A stretch of DNA of 64,000 nt, from the NCBI GenBank assembly GCA_020852835.1, contig JADZAC010000005.1, forward strand, positions 1-64,000. Reading direction: 5' to 3'. The DNA comes from Flavobacteriales bacterium (lineage in GTDB: Bacteria > Bacteroidota > Bacteroidia > Flavobacteriales_F > PHOS-HE28). Below the pieces are notes generated by a model. It was not told where the DNA came from, did not search any database, and saw only the letters and a list, made by a program, of their open reading frames with translations. The translations under genes were made by a program, and so were the position numbers. Of this stretch, positions 16,216-49,626 are shown piece by piece (the first letter of the stretch is position 1; each line of letters starts with the position of its first letter).

Positions 16216-18165
16216 ATGGCACAGCGTTCCACGATCCGTCGAAAGGCACGCGTACTGGCCGGACTGGCCGCGCTGGTGTTCCTGCTGGTGGGATGGACCA
16301 CCGCTACCACACCGGTTAAAGGGCCGCATGGCGCCTTGCAATTGGCTGTTGCACGGGAGCTGATCCAAGGATTGCCGGTACAGTTCGGAACCTACTTCGT
16401 CACCGCCGGCCGTTGTGCCGGATGCCACGGGCATGATGAACTGGGCATAGCCATGGTGGCGGGGGAGGAGGATGTGAACGTGGTGGACGACTGGCGCAGT
16501 TCGATGATGGCCAACAGCGCACGCGACCCCTTCTTTCTGGCCAAGGTGGAGCATGAAGGCCTGGTGAACCCGGGCTTCAAGGAACAGATGGAGCACAATT
16601 GCATGAAATGCCATGCGCCGCAAGCCGTCTTCGAGCAGCAGTTGTTGGGCAACCCCCCCTTCACCTTGGCCCAGTTCGACACCAGTGTGATGGCCCAGGA
16701 CGGCGTGTCCTGCCTCTCCTGCCACATGCAGAACCCGGATTCCGCCGGCCGGTACTTCTCGGGCGATCTGCACTTCGACAGTGCCCGCGTTTGGGGGCCG
16801 TATACCGATGAGCAGATCAACCCGGCCATCATGCAGTATTTCATCAACTACACCCCGGACCAAGGATCGCACATCCTGGACGGCCGCGTGTGTGCCGGCT
16901 GCCATACCGCCATCAACCAAAGCCAAGATCTCCAAGGCGAGCCTACCGGCACCTTCTTCTTTGAACAAACCATGTGGCAGGAATACGTGAACTCGGTGTA
17001 TTACGGCACGGAACAGAACTGCCGCAGCTGCCACATGCCGCGCATCCAGGATTCCGTGGTGCTGGCCTCCGAGTACATCTTCCTCAATGGCCAATCGCCC
17101 TTCGGGAAGCACCACTTGGCGGGAGGCGGATCATTCATGCTGAAGCTGATGCGGGACAACCTCAGTGCACTGGGCATTCCGGCCACGGCGGCCCAGTTCG
17201 ACAGCTCGATCGCGCGCACCGGCCGCACCCTCAAGGCGTCCGTTGAATTGGACCTCGTGGTGGCCGACCGCACCGTGGACACCTTGTTCGCGGACGTGGG
17301 CCTCACCAACATCACCGGCCATAAGTTCCCCAGCGGTTTCCCCAACCGCCGTGCCTTCGTGCAGGTGGTGGCGCTCACCGCCACGGGCGATACCCTTTTC
17401 CGCAGCGGCACCTGGGACAGCACCTTCGAAGTGCACGGCCATGATGCGGCCTATGAGCCCCACCACCAGGTGATCACCGATGGTGATCAGGTGCAGATCT
17501 ACGAGCTGGTCATGGGCGATGTGAATTACGGCGTGACCACCACCCTGCTGCGCGCGGTGCACAAACTGAAGGACAACCGGCTGGTGCCCCTGGGCTTCAC
17601 CACGGCGCATGCCAGCTACGACACCGTGGCCATCGCGGGGCTGGCCACCACCGATGCGGACTTCAATCACGGCGCGGGAGGGCAGCAGGGCAATGGTGGC
17701 GATATCGTGCACTACCATATTCCCATGAACGGATACGGCGGTGCCGTGCAGGTAAAGGCCAAGGTGTACTACCAGCAGGTGCCGCCACGGTGGAATGCGG
17801 AGATGTTCAGCCATCAAGCCCCGCGCATAGATGCGTTCCGCGCCATGTACAACGCCGCGGACGGCACGCCGGACCTGGCCGCCGCGGATTCGTTGGTGGA
17901 CCTGGGCACGGGGATCGCACCGGTGGGCACCTTCGCTGCGCAAGCCTTCCCCAATCCCACGCGGAATGGCATGGTGACCATTGCTGCGCAGGATGTCACC
18001 CGCATCGTGGCATATGACCCGGCCGGCAAGCGGGCCGCCTTGCATGCCGTGCGTACTGATGCAGGCTGGCGGTGCACGCTCCCCGAACAGCCTGGCGTGT
18101 ACCACTTGGTGCTTGCAACACCGCACGGCCAACAACTGCTGCGCGTGGTGCGTACCGCCGAATAA
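16216..18165 (+). CDS. Pentaheme c-type cytochrome with a T9SS sorting domain
   Basis: The 649-residue protein has an N-terminal signal peptide (hydrophobic stretch about 13-30). Five CxxCH haem-attachment motifs lie at residues 67-71 (CAGCH), 129-133 (CMKCH), 166-170 (CLSCH), 226-230 (CAGCH) and 269-273 (CRSCH). A beta-rich region of about 300 residues without haem motifs follows. The last 75 residues ('FPNPTRNGMVTI', 'YDPAGKR', 'PGVYHLVL') are a type A T9SS sorting domain. Haem would be attached in the periplasm and the protein then carried to the cell surface. Its electron-transfer partner is not visible. The stop overlaps the next start (TAATG), coupling it to the MOSC gene. Confidence 0.87.
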   Translation: MAQRSTIRRKARVLAGLAALVFLLVGWTTATTPVKGPHGALQLAVARELIQGLPVQFGTYFVTAGRCAGCHGHDELGIAMVAGEEDVNVVDDWRSSMMANSARDPFFLAKVEHEGLVNPGFKEQMEHNCMKCHAPQAVFEQQLLGNPPFTLAQFDTSVMAQDGVSCLSCHMQNPDSAGRYFSGDLHFDSARVWGPYTDEQINPAIMQYFINYTPDQGSHILDGRVCAGCHTAINQSQDLQGEPTGTFFFEQTMWQEYVNSVYYGTEQNCRSCHMPRIQDSVVLASEYIFLNGQSPFGKHHLAGGGSFMLKLMRDNLSALGIPATAAQFDSSIARTGRTLKASVELDLVVADRTVDTLFADVGLTNITGHKFPSGFPNRRAFVQVVALTATGDTLFRSGTWDSTFEVHGHDAAYEPHHQVITDGDQVQIYELVMGDVNYGVTTTLLRAVHKLKDNRLVPLGFTTAHASYDTVAIAGLATTDADFNHGAGGQQGNGGDIVHYHIPMNGYGGAVQVKAKVYYQQVPPRWNAEMFSHQAPRIDAFRAMYNAADGTPDLAAADSLVDLGTGIAPVGTFAAQAFPNPTRNGMVTIAAQDVTRIVAYDPAGKRAALHAVRTDAGWRCTLPEQPGVYHLVLATPHGQQLLRVVRTAE

Positions 18166-18962
18166 TGCACACCGTCGTTGCCTCCATGCACATCTACCCG
18201 GTCAAATCCCTGGGCGGTTTCAGCGTACGGCAAGCGAAGCTCACGGACCGGGGCCTGGAGCATGACCGCCGTTGGATGCTGGTGGATGCGGACGGCAAAT
18301 TCCTGTCGCAGCGCGAAGTGCCGGTGATGGCATGCTTGCACTGCGCCCCTGCCGACAAGGGCTTCTCGGTCACCGATGTGCGCACCGGGGGAGCGCTGGA
18401 CATTCCATGGGCACTGCTTGAGGGGGAAGCGGTCCAGGCACGGGTATGGAACGATGAGGTGGAATTGTTGCTCGCTCCCGCATCCATGCATCAATGGTTC
18501 AGCGATGCGCTGAAGCGGCACGTGCACCTGGCCTACATGCCGGATTCCACGGTGCGCCCCACCGATCCCCTATACGCCAAGGCCCGCGTGGCGCTCAATG
18601 ATGCCTTCCCGGCCTTGATCATCTCGCAAGCTTCCCTCGATGAGCTGAACACACGCCTGGCCATGCCTGTTCCCATGGACCGGTTCCGGCCCAACCTGGT
18701 GATCGCCGGAGGCGAAGCATTCCAGGAGGACCGATGGAAGGACCTGGTGATCGGAGAGGCCAGGTTCAAGAGTGTGAAGCCTTGTGCGCGTTGCGCCGTG
18801 ACCACCACGGACCAACGCACGGGCGTGCGTTCACAAGAGCCCCTGCGCACCTTGGCAGCATACCGTTCGGTGGGCAACAAAGTGCTCTTCGGCATCAACG
18901 CCGTCTTTGATGCTCCCGGCATGGTACGGGCAGGCGATCCGGTACGGCCCGTCGACCATTAG
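18165..18962 (+). CDS. MOSC domain-containing protein (MOSC N-terminal beta barrel plus MOSC)
   Basis: The 265-residue cytoplasmic protein has the beta-barrel N-terminal domain ('IYPVKSLGGFSV', 'LEHDRRWMLVD') and the MOSC domain. The latter carries the conserved cysteine segment 'VKPCARCAVTTTD', expected to bind the molybdenum cofactor or sulfur. Relatives include mARC- and YcbX-type enzymes that reduce N-hydroxylated compounds; activity cannot be assigned further. It is translationally coupled to the pentaheme cytochrome (one-base overlap), which suggests joint expression although the two products act in different compartments. Confidence 0.88.
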   Translation: MHTVVASMHIYPVKSLGGFSVRQAKLTDRGLEHDRRWMLVDADGKFLSQREVPVMACLHCAPADKGFSVTDVRTGGALDIPWALLEGEAVQARVWNDEVELLLAPASMHQWFSDALKRHVHLAYMPDSTVRPTDPLYAKARVALNDAFPALIISQASLDELNTRLAMPVPMDRFRPNLVIAGGEAFQEDRWKDLVIGEARFKSVKPCARCAVTTTDQRTGVRSQEPLRTLAAYRSVGNKVLFGINAVFDAPGMVRAGDPVRPVDH

Positions 18963-19852: not shown

Positions 19853-20836
19853 CTATTCCGCCGGCGACCAGTATTGCACCTTGTTGGCCACGGGCTTCAA
19901 GGCATGCAGGTAGTCATAGATGGCCCCAAGGTCTTCTTCCGACATGCCCGCGTACATCGTCCATGGCATCACGGTCTGTTGGTCATGGGCCTGCCAGTCC
20001 ACCAGGGCCGGGGTATATGAGCTGTCCGCGAACAGCTTGAACTTGCGGATGAACGTGGCCTTGTCCCATGCACCGATGCCGTTGATCTTGTCCGGTGTGA
20101 TGTTGGAGGAACGCGCAATGGAACCATCCGGGAACTGGAACTCGAATCCGCCGGCGAACGGCTCGCCCACTTCCTTCCCGTTTTCAACCTTGGTATGGCA
20201 CACCTTGCACCCGGCGGCATTCACCATGTACGCACCGTATCCGGGGGCACCGGGCTCGGGCCGTTGCACGGGATGCGCCGCTTCGGGAATGGTGTGCAGA
20301 ATGATGTTCATGGGGAAGTCTGCCTTGGAATAGCCGGGATGGCTCTCGATCGAGGGCAGTGTGCGCAAGTACGTGATAATGCTGTACACATCCTCGTCGG
20401 CCAGGTGGTTGTAGTTCAAATAGGGCATTACCGGAAAGAAGGGGTGGCCGTCCTTGCTTACTCCGCTGGTGATGGCCCGATAGAGCTCGCCATCGGTCCA
20501 GCCTTGCAGGTTGAACGGTGTGATGTTCTTGGAGACAAAATGCCCGGGAAAGTTCATCTTCCGGTCGAACACTTCACCCCCCTTGCCCAAGGTGCCCGGC
20601 ACCAATGGCCCGGAGAACTTGTTCCAGTCGCGTGTGCTGTGGCAATCCATGCAGAGCGTGACGTGGTTGGCGAGGTATTCCCCGCGCGCCACGCGTTCCG
20701 GTGTTCGTTCCACGCGCAGGTCCGCGGGCACCGGGATATCGGGCAGGGCCTGGGTGACGTACGTAATGGAGCCTGCCACGACCACGATGAGCGCCACCAC
20801 CAAGAACAGGAGGATCTTCAGGAGCTTTTTCATCAT
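19853..20836 (-). CDS. Membrane-anchored diheme cytochrome c
   Basis: The 327-residue protein has one N-terminal membrane helix (residues 5-22) without an obvious cleavage site, so it is probably anchored with its body in the periplasm. Two CxxCH motifs are present, CMDCH at 62-66 and CKVCH at 210-214, each followed by a cytochrome c fold with downstream Met residues as possible sixth ligands ('FFPVMPYLNYNHL', 'MPWTMYAGM'). The layout resembles the diheme subunits that pass electrons from periplasmic dehydrogenases to oxidases. No dehydrogenase partner is adjacent. An ATG one codon downstream (20833) is an equally good start. Confidence 0.87.
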   Translation of the reverse strand: MMKKLLKILLFLVVALIVVVAGSITYVTQALPDIPVPADLRVERTPERVARGEYLANHVTLCMDCHSTRDWNKFSGPLVPGTLGKGGEVFDRKMNFPGHFVSKNITPFNLQGWTDGELYRAITSGVSKDGHPFFPVMPYLNYNHLADEDVYSIITYLRTLPSIESHPGYSKADFPMNIILHTIPEAAHPVQRPEPGAPGYGAYMVNAAGCKVCHTKVENGKEVGEPFAGGFEFQFPDGSIARSSNITPDKINGIGAWDKATFIRKFKLFADSSYTPALVDWQAHDQQTVMPWTMYAGMSEEDLGAIYDYLHALKPVANKVQYWSPAE

Positions 20837-42378: not shown

Positions 42379-45300
42379 ATGAACTACCCATCGCCCTTGA
42401 AGACCCTGCTGCGCCATGCAGCCTTGTGGGCCGTGCTGCTGGCCGCCGCCTCCACGGTGCAGGCTTCCGCACTCCGCGCACCGGCGCTCCAGGTGGACAG
42501 CCCGCAGATCGACCTGCACTACCCCATCACGGACCCGCCCGGCGCAGGTGACGGAAATACGGGCACCATAGACCTGGGCACCCCGGGCAACGTGACCAAT
42601 GAGGTGGTGTACGATCCCGCGACCGGGCAGTACATCCTGCGCAGCCGCATGGGCGAGAACATCGACTACCGGCCGCCGCAAAGCATGTCGTTGGAGCAGT
42701 ACATGAACTACGACATGCAGCAGGCCATGCAGACCTACTGGATGGAGAAGAACCAGGAGGAAACCGAACGGGCGGCCAAGGGATTGATCCCCAGCATCCA
42801 GGTGCGCAGCGAGGCGTTCTGCCGGATCTTCGGGGGCTGCAACATCGACATACGCCCACAAGGCAGCGCGGAAGTCACCTTTGGGCTGAACACCAGCAAG
42901 ACCGAGAACCCGCGGATCCCGGTGGACCAGCGCAAGATCACCACCTTCAACTTCGACCAGAAGATCCAGCTCAACCTGGTGGGCAACATCGGCACCAAGC
43001 TGAAGATCAACACCAGCTACAACACCGAGGCCACCTTTGATTTCGAGAACCAGGTGAAGCTCAACTTCGCCGGCGAGGAGGACGACATCATCCAGAAGCT
43101 GGAGGCGGGCAACGTGAGCCTGCCGCTCACCGGCCAGTTGATCCAAGGCAGCCAGAGCCTCTTCGGCCTGAAGACCGAGCTGCGCTTCGGGCGCTTGACG
43201 GCCACGGCCATCTTCAGCCAGGAAAAGGGACAGCGCAAGAACATTGCCGTGGCCGGCGGGGCGCAAACCACCAACTTCGAGATCAAGGCCGACCAGTACG
43301 AGGCCAACAAATACTACTTCCTCAGCTACTATTTCCGCGACAATTACGAGAACGCCCTGCGCACCCTGCCCACGGTGAACAGCGGCATCCAGGTGACCAA
43401 GGTGGAAGTGTGGGTGACCAACACCCGCAGCGATTACACCAACAACCGCAACATTGTGGCCTTCACCGACCTGGGCGAAGATGCCAGCGCGGCCAGCGCG
43501 GCGGCAAACCGCGTCAGTGCCAACCTGGTCAATTCGGGCTTTTTGGTGGACGGCCCGGGCAACTTGCCGGGCAACGGGGCCAACAACCTGTACAACCTGG
43601 TGGCCAACAATGCCGGCATCCGGTCCTTCACCTCGGCGGGCGCGGCGTTGCAGGTCATGGGCATGCAGGCCAGCAAGAACCACGAAAAGCTCGAGAGCGC
43701 ACGCCTGCTGCTGCCCAGCGAATACACCTTGAACGAACGGCTGGGCTTCATCGGCCTCAACCAGAACCTGAACAACGACGAGGTGCTGGCCGTGGCCTTC
43801 CAGTACACCTACCAAGGGCAGACCTTCCAAGTGGGTGAATTCAGCACCGATGGGGTGGCCCCGCCCAATGCCTTGGTGGTGCGCCTGCTCAAGAGCACCA
43901 TCACCGACCCGCGGCAGCCCCTGTGGGACCTGATGATGAAGAACGTCTACTCCTTGGGCGCCTTCCAGGTGAATGCGCAGGACTTCCGCCTGGAGCTGCT
44001 CTACAACAACCCCACCACGGGGGTGGACCTCAACTACATCCCCCGCCCGCCCATCGACCAGAAACCCTTGCTGCAAGCCTTGGGCCTGGACCGGTTGGAC
44101 ATGCAGAACGCGCCCAACCCGGACGGCTGGTTCGATTGGGTGGACAATGCGGCCACCACCGGGGGCACGGTGAATGCGCAGAACGGCCGCATCTTCTTCC
44201 CGGTGCTGGAACCTTTCGGCAGCTTCCTGAACCGCCAATTGATCGGACCGGACCCCAACAACCCGGTGCAGGATACGCTGGTGCGCAAGAACATCGTCTT
44301 CCAACAACTGTACGACAGCACCAAAACGGCGGCGGAAAACCTGCCCGAGCTCAACCGCTTCAAGATGAAGGGCAGCTTCAAGAGCGCCAGCAGCGATGTG
44401 ATCAGCCTCAACTCGGTGAACATCCCCCAAGGTTCGGTGAGCGTAACCGCCGGGGGCGTGCGCCTGGTGGAGAACCAGGACTACACGGTGGACTACAACC
44501 TGGGCCGGGTGAAGATCCTCAACCAAGGCATCCTGGAAAGCGGCACCCCGATCAACGTGAGCCTGGAGAGCAACACCCTCTTCAGCATACAGACGAAGAC
44601 CCTGGCGGGAGCGCGGTTCGACTACAAGGTGAACAAGGACCTGGTGCTGGGCGGCACGGTGATGAACCTTTACGAGCGCCCGCTCACCCAGAAGGTGAAC
44701 GTAGGGGATGAACCCATCGCCAACACCATCGTGGGCCTGGACGGCAGCTGGAAAAAGGAAAGCGGTTTGATCACCCGCCTGCTGGACAAATTGCCCCTGT
44801 ACGCCACCAAGGAAACCAGCAGCATGGATGCCAATGCCGAGGCGGCCTACCTGATCCCCGGCCACAGCAAGGCCATCGGCAAGGGCGGTACCAGCTACAT
44901 CGATGATTTCGAGGGCAGCGTGAGCAACATCGACATGCGCACACAAAGCCAATGGTTCATGGCCGCCACGCCGCAGGGCCAAACCGGCGACCTCTTCCCG
45001 GAGGGAGAGTTCATCAACGAACTGGCCACCGGCTTCAAGCGCGCACTGCTCTCCTGGTATGTGGTGGACCCGCTCTTCTTCAACAACAACAGCCTGAAAC
45101 CACCCTTGCCCGACGGATCGGACACGGACAACCGCTCGCGCGAGGTGCTGGAAAAGGAGGTGTTCCCCAACCGGCAGCTGGCCACGGGCACCCCCAGCAA
45201 CATCCCCGTGCTGGACCTGGCCTACTACCCCGCCGAACGGGGCCCGTACAACTACACCACCAATTTGGACGACAACGGCAACCTGCAAGATCCCGAGGGG

Positions 45301-48300
45301 AATTGGGCGGGGATCCAGCGGCGCATCACCACCACGGATTTTGAAGCGAGCAACATTGAAACCGTGCAGTTCTGGGTGATGGACCCGTTCAACACGGCCG
45401 TGAGCAACGCCAACGGGGAGCCCGCAAGCAACGAGGACTCCCAGAACACCACGGGCGGCGACCTTTACATCAACCTGGGCAACCTCAGCGAGGATGCCCT
45501 GCGCGACGGCCGGAAAAGCTTTGAGAACGGCCTGCCCAAAAACCCCTCGGACCAGGCCGCCACCACCGACCAGACCAACTGGGGCGTGGTGCCCACCACC
45601 CAAAGCGTGGTGAACGCCTTTGCCATCACCGACCAGAACACCTACCGGTACCAGGACGTGGGCATGGACGGGTTGGCCAACAGCGACGCCAATGCGTTCC
45701 AATCCGGCTTGAATGAGCAGACGTTCTTTGCCGACTACCTCAATGCGCTCAGCCCGGGCGCCCGCTCGCGCTGGGCAGGAGACCCTTCCGCGGACGATTA
45801 CCACTATTTCCGGGGCAGCGACTACGACGGGCCGCCCCTGAGCATCCTGGACCGGTACAAGCGCTTCAACGGCCTGGAGGGCAACTCCATCACCGATGAG
45901 GACAGCCCGGAAGACTACCCCACGCAGGCCACTACCCTGCCCACCTCCGAAGATGTGAACCAGGACCAGAACCTGAGCGAAAGCGAGGCTTATTTCCAAT
46001 ACCGGATCAACCTGCGTCCATCGGAAATGGTGGTGGGCCGCGGGTTCATCACCGACCGGGTGCTGGGCCGCACGCCCAGCGGCAAGGAAGTGTACTGGTA
46101 CCAGTTCAAAGTACCGGTGCGGCAGCCGGAGAAAGTGGTGAACGGCATCCAGGACTTCCGTTCCATCCGGTTCATGCGCCTGTACGTCAAGGGCTGGTCG
46201 CAGCCCACCGTGCTGCGTTTCGCGCGCCTGGATTTCGTGCGGGGCGAATGGCGCAAGTACACCCAAAGCCTGGAAGCGCCCGGGGAAGTGATCGGCGGCG
46301 ATCCCGACCAGACCACCTTCGATGTGGCCGCCGTGAACATTGAGGAGAACGGGAACCGCGTGCCGGTGAACTATGTGCTGCCCCCCGGCATCAACCAGGA
46401 AACCGACATTGCCAGCGCCAACCTGCGCAACCTCAACGAACAATCCTTGGAATTGAGCACCTGCGGGCTGCGCGACGGGGATGCGCGCGCGGCCTTCCGC
46501 AACGTGAGCTTCGACATCCGCAGTTACAAGAAGCTGCGCATGTACGTGCACGCCGAATCCGCCGATCCCGACCGGCCCGTGGCCTATGGGGACGTGAGCG
46601 TGTTCATCCGCCTGGGCAACGACTACGAGCAGAACTACTACGAGTACGAGGTGCCGGTAAAGCCCTCGGCCTTCTTCAACAGCGACCCCTACAACGTTTG
46701 GCCCGAGGACAACAACATGGTGGTGGAGTTCGCGCGCCTGAACGATGTGAAGATCCAGCGCAACCAGCAGGGCTTCCCCATGAACCAGCGGTTCTCCACC
46801 ATGGAAGGCGATCGCCGGGTGACCGTGGTGGGCAACCCCAACCTGAGCCAGATGAACACCATCATGATCGGCATCAGGAACCCCAAGCGCGACGGCGACC
46901 AGGCCAATCCCTGGGCCAATGACGACGGCAGCGCCAAATGCGTGGAGGTGTGGGTGAACGAACTGCGGCTCACGGATTTCGACCAGCGAGGCGGCTGGGC
47001 GGCGATCGCCCGGGTGAACACCACGTTGGCCGACCTGGGCACCCTGAGCGTGGCGGGCAATTACAGCACGCCGGGCTGGGGCAGCATCGACAAGAAGGTG
47101 AGCGAGCGCCAGCGCGACACGCGTTACGGCATTGATGTGAGCGCCAACCTGGAAATGAGCAAATTCCTGCCGGAAAAGGCCGGAGTGAAAGTGCCCATGT
47201 ACCTAGGCTATTCCGAGCAGGTGATCAACCCGCAGTACGACCCGCTGAACCCCGACATCGAGTGGGAGGATGCCACCCGTTCGCTCACGCGGGAAGAAAA
47301 GAAGCAGCGCCTCAAGGAGCTGCGCACCTATACGCGCCGCAGGAGCATCAACCTGACCAATGTGCGCAAGGAGAGCGCACCGGGCAAGGAGCGGGAACAC
47401 TTCTACGACGTATCCAACTTCGGTCTCTCCTATGCGTACAGCGACCAGGAGTTCCACGATGTGAACACCCAGTACGAAAACACGCGCACCTACCGCGGGT
47501 CGCTCAGCTACCAGCACAACCCCAAGCCGCGGCCGGTGAAGCCCTTCGAGAACGTGGCCTTCATCGGCAAGAGCAAGTGGCTGCGCCTGGTGAAGGATTT
47601 CAATTTCAATTTCGGGTTCAAGCAGATCACCGCCCGCACCGCCATCGACCGCAGCTACCTGGAGCGCCTGATCCGGCCCAACCCGGACATCCAAAGCCTG
47701 CCCCCGGCGCCCACGTACAACAAAACCTTCAATTGGACCAACCAGTACGGCTTCCGCTACGAGCTCACCAAGAGCCTGAAGGTGGATTTCAATGCCAACA
47801 ACAACTCGATCATCGGCGAGCCTGCCGGGCGCGTCAACACCGATGACCGCGACCAATACGCCATCTGGAAAGACAGCGTGCTGGCCAGCATGAGGAATTT
47901 CGGGGAAACCACCACCTATGACCACGCGGTGAACGTGACCTACACGCTCCCGCTGGACAAGCTCCCGCTGACCGACTGGATCACCTCCTCGGTGACCTAT
48001 GGTGCGGGCTACAAGTGGGACCGCGCGCCGCTCACCCAGGACAGCATCGGCAACACCATCCAGAACTCGCGCAACATCAACCTCAGCGGGCAGTTCAACT
48101 TTGTGAGCCTGTACAACAAGGTGAAGTACTTCAAGAAGATCAACGACAAGGCGCGTGCCGGTTCACGGGCACCTGCAAACCGCAGGGCCGGGCAAGAGGC
48201 CGGGCAGGCGGAAAAGCCCAAGGAGCCCGCAGCGGACGGAAGCAAGTTCAACCCCTTGGAAGGCCTGGCCCGCGTGCTGATGACCGTGCGCACGGGAACG

Positions 48301-49626
48301 ATCACCTACAGCCAGAACAACGGTATTCTGTTGCCGGGCTGGCAACCGGGCAGCAATGTCCTCGGCATGGCCCCGGGCTTCGGTGCTCCGGGCTTCGGGT
48401 TCATCCTGGGCGAGCAGAACCAGGACCTGTCCGGCAATTACATCCGCGATTTCGCCACCGAGGCCGCAGCGAACAACTGGCTGGTGCGCACACCGAGCAT
48501 CTTCAACCCCTACACCAACACCCGCACCGAGACCATCAACGGGCGCTTGTCCCTGGAGCCGTTCAAGAGCATGCGGATCGAGCTGATGGCCACCCGCACC
48601 CAAAGCGAGAACCACAGTTCCTTCTTCCGGTGGAACGCTTCCGAAGGGCGCTATGTGAACGACAGCCCGCAGGATTTCGGCAACTTCAGCGTGAGCACCA
48701 TCAACTGGGCCACCACCTTCAGCCGGGACGACGAGAACTTCGTGAACGACATCTTCCTGCACATGCTGGAGGCCCGCGAGGTGATCAGCAGGCGTTTGGG
48801 CCAGGCCGACGCGCGCAGTTCGCCCACCGACAGCGCCTACTGGAGCGGCTACGGAGCGTTGAACCAGGATGTGGTGATCCCGGCGTTCCTGGCGGCCTAT
48901 TCGGGCAAGAGCGCGGAGCGGGTGGAGCTCAACCCCTTCAAGCTCATCCCCCTGCCCAACTGGGACATCACCTATGACGGCCTCACGAAGATCAACCTCT
49001 TCAAGAAGTTCTTCCGCACGTTCATGGTCAAGCACAGCTACCGCAGCACGTTCAACATTGGCGGCTACCAGACCAACCTGCTCTACGAACCCGGCGGCAG
49101 CGTGCTGGACGTGGGCGGCAACTTCCTGCCCGAGCGCCAGATCCAAACGGTGACCATCTCGGAGGTGATGCATCCGTTCATCACCTTCGACGCCACCTTG
49201 CAGAACAGCCTGATCGCCAAGTTCGAATACAATCGCGACCGCAACCTCAGCCTGGGCCTCACCAACTACCAAGTGACCGAAGTGCGCGGCATTGAATACG
49301 TGATCGGCAGCGGCTACCGGTTCAAGAACGTGAAGTTCCCCTTCCAGTTGGGCGGCAAAACCCCGCAAAGCGACCTGAACTTGCGGGTGGACCTGAGCTG
49401 GCGGCAGAACAACACGGTGATCCGCAAAATGGAGGAAGGCCAGAACCAGGTCACCGCCGGCCAGGACATCATTTCGGTGAAGACCAGCGCGGATTATGTG
49501 ATCGACCAACGCCTGAACCTGCGGGCGTTCTATGAGCGGGTGATCAACAAACCGGTGATCAGCACCTCCTTCCCGAGCGCCAATACCAACTTGGGCATCA
49601 GCTTGCGCTTCACGTTGACCCAATAA
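42379..49626 (+). CDS. sprA: T9SS outer-membrane translocon protein SprA (Sov)
   Basis: At 2415 residues this is the largest gene in the window and has the normal SprA length. A signal peptide ('LKTLLRHAALWAVLLAAASTVQA') is followed by long beta-rich sequence with typical SprA blocks such as 'NYDMQQAMQTYWMEKNQEE', 'KITTFNFDQKIQLNLVGNIG' and 'TSYIDDFEGSVSNIDMR', and it ends in an outer-membrane strand ('NLGISLRFTLTQ'). SprA forms the very large beta-barrel pore of the type IX secretion system, through which all the sorting-domain proteins of this window must pass. It is also needed for gliding in Flavobacteria. It follows ruvA by 19 bases. Confidence 0.95.
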   Translation: MNYPSPLKTLLRHAALWAVLLAAASTVQASALRAPALQVDSPQIDLHYPITDPPGAGDGNTGTIDLGTPGNVTNEVVYDPATGQYILRSRMGENIDYRPPQSMSLEQYMNYDMQQAMQTYWMEKNQEETERAAKGLIPSIQVRSEAFCRIFGGCNIDIRPQGSAEVTFGLNTSKTENPRIPVDQRKITTFNFDQKIQLNLVGNIGTKLKINTSYNTEATFDFENQVKLNFAGEEDDIIQKLEAGNVSLPLTGQLIQGSQSLFGLKTELRFGRLTATAIFSQEKGQRKNIAVAGGAQTTNFEIKADQYEANKYYFLSYYFRDNYENALRTLPTVNSGIQVTKVEVWVTNTRSDYTNNRNIVAFTDLGEDASAASAAANRVSANLVNSGFLVDGPGNLPGNGANNLYNLVANNAGIRSFTSAGAALQVMGMQASKNHEKLESARLLLPSEYTLNERLGFIGLNQNLNNDEVLAVAFQYTYQGQTFQVGEFSTDGVAPPNALVVRLLKSTITDPRQPLWDLMMKNVYSLGAFQVNAQDFRLELLYNNPTTGVDLNYIPRPPIDQKPLLQALGLDRLDMQNAPNPDGWFDWVDNAATTGGTVNAQNGRIFFPVLEPFGSFLNRQLIGPDPNNPVQDTLVRKNIVFQQLYDSTKTAAENLPELNRFKMKGSFKSASSDVISLNSVNIPQGSVSVTAGGVRLVENQDYTVDYNLGRVKILNQGILESGTPINVSLESNTLFSIQTKTLAGARFDYKVNKDLVLGGTVMNLYERPLTQKVNVGDEPIANTIVGLDGSWKKESGLITRLLDKLPLYATKETSSMDANAEAAYLIPGHSKAIGKGGTSYIDDFEGSVSNIDMRTQSQWFMAATPQGQTGDLFPEGEFINELATGFKRALLSWYVVDPLFFNNNSLKPPLPDGSDTDNRSREVLEKEVFPNRQLATGTPSNIPVLDLAYYPAERGPYNYTTNLDDNGNLQDPEGNWAGIQRRITTTDFEASNIETVQFWVMDPFNTAVSNANGEPASNEDSQNTTGGDLYINLGNLSEDALRDGRKSFENGLPKNPSDQAATTDQTNWGVVPTTQSVVNAFAITDQNTYRYQDVGMDGLANSDANAFQSGLNEQTFFADYLNALSPGARSRWAGDPSADDYHYFRGSDYDGPPLSILDRYKRFNGLEGNSITDEDSPEDYPTQATTLPTSEDVNQDQNLSESEAYFQYRINLRPSEMVVGRGFITDRVLGRTPSGKEVYWYQFKVPVRQPEKVVNGIQDFRSIRFMRLYVKGWSQPTVLRFARLDFVRGEWRKYTQSLEAPGEVIGGDPDQTTFDVAAVNIEENGNRVPVNYVLPPGINQETDIASANLRNLNEQSLELSTCGLRDGDARAAFRNVSFDIRSYKKLRMYVHAESADPDRPVAYGDVSVFIRLGNDYEQNYYEYEVPVKPSAFFNSDPYNVWPEDNNMVVEFARLNDVKIQRNQQGFPMNQRFSTMEGDRRVTVVGNPNLSQMNTIMIGIRNPKRDGDQANPWANDDGSAKCVEVWVNELRLTDFDQRGGWAAIARVNTTLADLGTLSVAGNYSTPGWGSIDKKVSERQRDTRYGIDVSANLEMSKFLPEKAGVKVPMYLGYSEQVINPQYDPLNPDIEWEDATRSLTREEKKQRLKELRTYTRRRSINLTNVRKESAPGKEREHFYDVSNFGLSYAYSDQEFHDVNTQYENTRTYRGSLSYQHNPKPRPVKPFENVAFIGKSKWLRLVKDFNFNFGFKQITARTAIDRSYLERLIRPNPDIQSLPPAPTYNKTFNWTNQYGFRYELTKSLKVDFNANNNSIIGEPAGRVNTDDRDQYAIWKDSVLASMRNFGETTTYDHAVNVTYTLPLDKLPLTDWITSSVTYGAGYKWDRAPLTQDSIGNTIQNSRNINLSGQFNFVSLYNKVKYFKKINDKARAGSRAPANRRAGQEAGQAEKPKEPAADGSKFNPLEGLARVLMTVRTGTITYSQNNGILLPGWQPGSNVLGMAPGFGAPGFGFILGEQNQDLSGNYIRDFATEAAANNWLVRTPSIFNPYTNTRTETINGRLSLEPFKSMRIELMATRTQSENHSSFFRWNASEGRYVNDSPQDFGNFSVSTINWATTFSRDDENFVNDIFLHMLEAREVISRRLGQADARSSPTDSAYWSGYGALNQDVVIPAFLAAYSGKSAERVELNPFKLIPLPNWDITYDGLTKINLFKKFFRTFMVKHSYRSTFNIGGYQTNLLYEPGGSVLDVGGNFLPERQIQTVTISEVMHPFITFDATLQNSLIAKFEYNRDRNLSLGLTNYQVTEVRGIEYVIGSGYRFKNVKFPFQLGGKTPQSDLNLRVDLSWRQNNTVIRKMEEGQNQVTAGQDIISVKTSADYVIDQRLNLRAFYERVINKPVISTSFPSANTNLGISLRFTLTQ

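Follow-up and report, generated by a model that had tools for sequence, protein, structure and literature searches.

Introduction

ExtKL, Gsu2801 and the pentahaem cytochromes (PHC) of cable bacteria have been placed in one group with structural homology to cytochrome c552 of Thermochromatium tepidum (5ze8), and members of the ExtKL/PHC group are described as a haem domain combined with an Ig-like domain (PMC11976967). The same work counts this group among potentially catalytic cytochromes with a pentacoordinate haem and suggests a link to the nanowire protein AvECN, which its fold resembles. A mixture of haem and beta domains is also found in the surface decahaem cytochromes OmcA and MtrC. 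Type A cargo of the T9SS, such as RgpB, HBP35 and the F. johnsoniae proteins NucA and RemZ, ends in a C-terminal beta-sandwich sorting domain. Such cargo is recognized via its C-terminal domain (CTD) in SprA/PorV, and c-type haem is attached to proteins outside the cytoplasm. Fusions of mCherry to a CTD have been found bound to this type of translocon (PMC10994853). Cytochromes go unmentioned in a review of T9SS cargo (PMC11205867), and in the open-access literature (subscription papers lay outside our scope) we found no report that joins the T9SS with multihaem cytochromes, nor one of a multihaem protein crossing SprA.

Here we analyse a gene from a Flavobacteriales bacterium (GTDB lineage Flavobacteriales_F; PHOS-HE28), a sludge-type member of the Bacteroidota. 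It lies on contig JADZAC010000005.1, in a window of 64,000 nt that represents the whole stretch of DNA analysed. Every part of the encoded protein is already known; the combination of a T9SS tail with a multihaem cytochrome seems to be unreported.

Results

A five-haem cytochrome with a c552-like core

The gene (P0001) occupies positions 16216–18165 of the forward strand, as an earlier note, made from the sequence alone, had correctly read, and encodes 649 aa. Its N-terminus (aa 1–36; positions 16216–16323, forward strand) has the charged n-region and hydrophobic core of a putative Sec signal peptide. The structure model has a helix at aa 4–31, within this segment, and some homologues have A-x-A sites at the aligned N-terminal place (for example VAHA/YHT). 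A predicted haem domain, collinear with 5ze8, follows at about aa 58–340 (16387–17235, forward strand). Its five c-type haem sites, all on the forward strand, are CAGCH at aa 67 (16414–16428), CMKCH at aa 129 (16600–16614), CLSCH at aa 166 (16711–16725), CAGCH at aa 226 (16891–16905) and CRSCH at aa 269 (17020–17034). All five motifs are invariant across an alignment of 66 homologues, and 20,000 composition-preserving shuffles of the protein never yielded more than one CxxCH, against five in the real sequence, which bears out the initial reading of five haem motifs on a single protein.

The same reading found no recognised domain in the C-terminal 300 residues. This was mistaken: an Ig-like domain with a GHKFPSG motif lies at about aa 341–562 (17236–17901, forward strand) and is followed by the sorting domain. 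A profile of the family gave E 3.1e-8 for c552 (5ze8) and E 1.2e-5 for MccSep, a multihaem selenoprotein; the match was strongest at aa 337–398, beyond the haems. The core model, compared by VIA, aligns with 5ze8 with a Z of 11.1 (310 of 385 residues aligned, rmsd 4.5, 20% identity), and the runner-up, an unrelated entry, reaches Z 6.9; 5ze8 also came first for the full-length model with both Foldseek and VIA. Model confidence is low for the haem part (mean pLDDT 56–60 over two models), and the folding alignment was shallow (17 sequences). Structures of AvECN, OmcE and MtrC were absent from the structure-match lists, which is uninformative in either direction. Together, the profile and structural matches indicate that the haem and Ig-like domains have the predicted fold of the Thermochromatium c552/ExtKL group. 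We abandoned an attempt to read axial ligands from the model because of the low confidence of the haem domain.

Comparison with c552 shows a common arrangement: five CxxCH motifs in one order, with W-x-x-S-M following haem 1, haem 2 reading CHAP and haem 5 CHMP, and, beyond the haems, an Ig-like domain with a conserved H-x-x-P-x-G. The two proteins differ in that they share about 20% identity, in that c552 ends after the Ig-like domain and lacks a sorting domain, and in one potential ligand position: the His of the SMH motif in c552 corresponds to Met98 of the cytochrome, a Met in 65 of the 66 aligned homologues. Met98 would fit a His/Met haem.

The pairing of a pentahaem domain with an Ig-like domain is shared with ExtKL, MccSep and the cable-bacteria PHC (PMC11976967), and the ExtKL model NF040886 matches 54 of 56 homologues. 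Unlike ExtKL, the cytochrome is encoded by a single gene and has an added T9SS tail; its NF040886 score of 19.3 bits is far below the equivalog cut-off of 250, and we saw no ExtI-type porin cluster near the gene. It is thus related to the c552/ExtKL/PHC group without being an ExtKL equivalog. With OmcA/MtrC it shares the character of a predicted surface-directed multihaem protein of mixed haem and beta domains, as well as local matches to TIGR03507 (OmcA/MtrC decahaem; 22.2 bits, against a cut-off of 209 and ten haems) and to the MtrC/MtrF-domain Pfam PF22113 (31.6, just above the cut-off of 30). It differs from them in having five haems, not ten, a T9SS signature instead of a lipobox, and no MtrB partner that we could find.

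The C-terminus is a T9SS type A sorting domain

The protein ends in a beta-sandwich (aa 574–649; 17935–18162, forward strand) detected with TIGR04183, a profile of distant tails, and VIA. TIGR04183 aligns aa 578–645 to model positions 2–70 of 72. The earlier note had named this model as the check on the proposed tail and the lack of a significant score as its refutation; the match is present and lies at the extreme C-terminus, but the score of the single sequence, taken literally, is weak (13.9 bits, E 0.041 with 18,950 models searched, versus a curated cut-off of 23 bits, which is a limit for detection and not a biological property).

Across the family, TIGR04183 matches 49 of 56 aligned homologues (E up to 1; best E 2.9e-11) and PF18962 matches 26 of the 56. 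The tail of a paralogue in the same genome passes the TIGR04183 cut-off, at 25.6 bits. Against a profile made solely from the tails of Saprospiraceae, the paralogue clade and one further family, the tail of the cytochrome scores 52.3 bits, compared with 7.0 bits for the best of 2,000 tail shuffles. At the tail residues, the family profile also matches solved T9SS CTDs, those of RgpB and of translocon-bound cargo from F. johnsoniae. The tail part of the model has a pLDDT of about 85, and its highest match in VIA, when compared alone, is the NucA CTD bound to SprA/PorV (8glk_D; Z 7.7 over 71 residues); the RgpB CTD (7pq4) scores Z 6.9. For the whole protein, the top two Foldseek matches are 5ze8 and then the T9SS cargo HBP35. 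The sorting domain is C-terminal in all tailed homologues. Because the homologues, the paralogue, the distant-tail profile and the predicted fold agree, we accept the identity of the tail despite its own 13.9 bits: this family evidence confirms a sorting domain of T9SS type A in the last ~76 residues, as first proposed from the sequence. Unlike known type A cargo, the passenger here is a multihaem cytochrome.

The tail marks one branch of the cytochrome family

A search for homologues of the same architecture, which the earlier note had advised, found them among the paralogues of the genus, in Saprospiraceae and in other Bacteroidota. Within the genus, 44 of 45 sampled genomes have homologues, usually as two paralogues; the second copy in our genome (contig C65) is 47% identical over its whole length. 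G022 is the only sampled genome of the genus with neither paralogue, though it is 92% complete. Phylum-wide, homologues occur in 22 of 395 genomes. Saprospiraceae and other MAGs have them as well. Outside the Bacteroidota, a 396-kb plasmid of Sulfurovum mangrovi (NZ_CP087125.1; L071:5857-7524) encodes a homologue of about 35% identity with a lipobox-like N-terminus (FVGC) and no tail.

Twelve sampled Bacteroidota copies have the same core and no tail. In a tree of the core, eleven of these form one clade (support 100) and the tailed copies fall together opposite it; the one exception is a tail-less copy in genome G346 that is the sister of its tailed tandem twin (support 100). Rooted with the single Sulfurovum sequence, this tree reads as a single gain of the tail followed by one loss or more. 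The sampled orthologues and paralogues of the genus have kept the tail, as have other tailed lineages.

We rejected the idea that tail presence tracks the presence of the T9SS, since SprA is found in all 22 homologue-bearing phylum genomes, the tail-less ones included. In the genomes with tail-less copies that we tested, the number of other TIGR04183 tails ranges from 8 to 79. Because these genomes possess both SprA and other tails, the sorting tail is tied to a branch of the cytochrome family and not to the export machine.

Fragments of the cytochrome were also seen in four genomes (G005 C62, G006 C74, G032 C6 and G026 C215). They comprise a copy that is split, N-terminal stubs within frames of 146 aa, and a tail on its own, encoded in a frame of 73 aa that lies 4 kb away from the gene.

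Export and electron-transfer genes

A complete gene for SprA, the T9SS outer-membrane translocon, lies about 24 kb from the cytochrome in the same window (42568–49617, forward strand; TIGR04189, 2563.7 bits). Over 120 other places in the genome score above the TIGR04183 cut-off, and haem-attachment genes of the CcmF/CcsA type are present. Two of the T9SS tails agree in score, query range and frame length (G000:C5:42-194, at a contig start, and G000:C54:78745-78897) and are perhaps a repeat that ends the contigs.

For an MtrB/PioB porin, a search of the genome with PF11854, which covers the MtrB type, gave no match. An MtrC-type multihaem probe of the genome recovered only this gene and an ActA-like protein with six CxxCH motifs; it missed the paralogue and is thus not exhaustive. 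By inspection, the ActA-like protein, encoded beside ActB- and NrfD-like genes, is an alternative complex III subunit.

Neighbouring genes are lineage-specific

The downstream gene (18165–18962, forward strand) encodes a protein with MOSC_N and MOSC domains, as identified with Pfam, and by synteny is a neighbour rather than a proven partner. The one-base overlap with it is real: in the sequence TAATG, the cytochrome stop spans 18163–18165 and the MOSC start 18165–18167. The earlier note had called this an odd pairing of a surface product with a cytoplasmic one. Of the 29 orthologous loci that have sufficient sequence, 19 have the MOSC gene next to the cytochrome, and in the other ten it is displaced or absent; neither the paralogue nor the other families have it nearby. 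We therefore rejected an obligate partnership and regard the arrangement as synteny.

On the other side, a divergent gene with many MORN_2 repeats (PF07661; 14501–16249, reverse strand) stands beside the cytochrome in most orthologue loci. A diheme cytochrome c, probably membrane-anchored (19853–20836, reverse strand), is encoded close to the cytochrome at each of the four long orthologue loci and is sometimes directly adjacent to it (L014). It is a possible electron donor, or its position may be mere synteny. In two tail-less genomes the homologue begins 27 bases after the gene for a 430-aa monohaem-type cytochrome c (L081:6105-9079 and L082:6356-9330), a possible periplasmic electron partner of the tail-less protein. 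Clustering of neighbours over 25 loci identified lineage-specific neighbours and none common to the whole family. Directly downstream of the paralogue on C65 is an M28 peptidase with a weak T9SS tail of its own (L072:9347-10534), an arrangement kept in four loci.

Discussion

Our computations give the domain architecture, its conservation, the identity of the tail and the presence of SprA. Given SprA, the 120-odd other tails and the haem-attachment genes, the natural reading is haem attachment in the periplasm followed by export through SprA, as the earlier note had supposed. We consider it likely that this c552/ExtKL-like pentahaem cytochrome with a T9SS type A tail is loaded with haem, exported by SprA and active as a surface redox protein; its haem loading, export, final location and redox role are the parts that we infer. 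The cytochrome would be exported by Sec, five haems would be covalently attached in the periplasm and the protein would then fold. SprA/PorV would recognize its C-terminal domain, and the folded holoprotein would pass through SprA. The sorting domain would then be removed, as it is from type A cargo in general, and the cytochrome would end up on the cell surface or beyond it. There it could relay electrons, with a partner in the envelope or outside the cell at one end and an acceptor, soluble or solid, at the other.

Two readings would deny the protein its surface address. The last 76 residues might be an ordinary Ig-like binding domain and not a sorting signal, and the VIA list for the tail does include many unrelated Ig domains with Z near 7. 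Profile matches nevertheless go specifically to T9SS CTDs, the position at the C-terminus holds in all tailed homologues, and the top match of the tail alone is a translocon-bound CTD; we think this reading very improbable. Alternatively, the tail could be degenerate or unused, so that the cytochrome stays in the periplasm, the presumed location of its tail-less relatives. The sub-threshold TIGR04183 score would agree with this, as would the 12 tail-less copies with the same core and the occurrence of a tailed and a tail-less copy in tandem (L059, L091). Retention of the tail in the genus orthologues, the paralogues and the other tailed lineages, its confidently predicted CTD fold and its 52 bits with the distant-tail profile argue to the contrary, and make a periplasmic cytochrome quite doubtful.

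The remaining alternatives concern what a haem-loaded protein would do at the surface. As a terminal reductase for minerals, electrodes or partner cells, fed by an outer-membrane conduit of unspecified type, it would serve respiratory extracellular electron transfer, one of the two roles suggested in the earlier note. Its relatives include the cable-bacteria sPHC and also ExtKL, for which a part in the extracellular electron transport of Geobacter has been proposed, and a link of this fold to AvECN has been suggested (PMC11976967); the PF22113 match (31.6 against 30) and the predicted surface address point the same way. Set against these are the genome's lack of a detectable MtrB/PioB porin (other conduits can be missed), a multihaem probe that returned only this gene and the ActA-like subunit (cytochromes can be missed), and an NF040886 score of 19 where 250 is the cut-off. 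We regard that role as unlikely. The cytochrome could instead be a catalytic surface enzyme that acts on a small molecule outside the cell (reducing a metal ion, an oxyanion, a sulfur or nitrogen compound, or peroxide) with no long-range wiring, its active haem being either of the His/Met kind or one that lacks a sixth ligand. This is a possibility that we take seriously without expecting it to be the answer: the ExtKL/PHC group has been classed as potentially catalytic with a pentacoordinate haem (PMC11976967), the SMH His of c552 is replaced by Met98 here and by Met in nearly all homologues, and no MtrB conduit was detected, but the electrons would still need a donor. Because no MtrB/PioB was found and the MtrC-type probe gave so little, we find a local role at the surface, redox or catalytic, more probable than respiratory transfer.

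Returning to the surface-exported holoprotein that we favour, a tail that behaves like those of other cargo would mean that a large five-haem protein crosses the outer membrane in its finished form. The T9SS could then export multi-cofactor redox proteins, and sludge Bacteroidota would have redox activity at their surface that escapes the customary search for porin-cytochrome clusters. More tentatively, and with the balance tilting somewhat against it, this may be the Bacteroidota's own route, in which a five-haem holoprotein folds in the periplasm and is pushed through SprA with no porin-cytochrome conduit, one clade having acquired a sorting domain and, through it, a place at the surface instead of the periplasm. 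With sister clades that have and lack the tail, and a tandem pair within a single genome, the question lends itself to direct testing. That pair, in G346 (C1:3407559-3410924, minus strand), consists of one tailed and one tail-less copy and could be a periplasm-to-surface pair.
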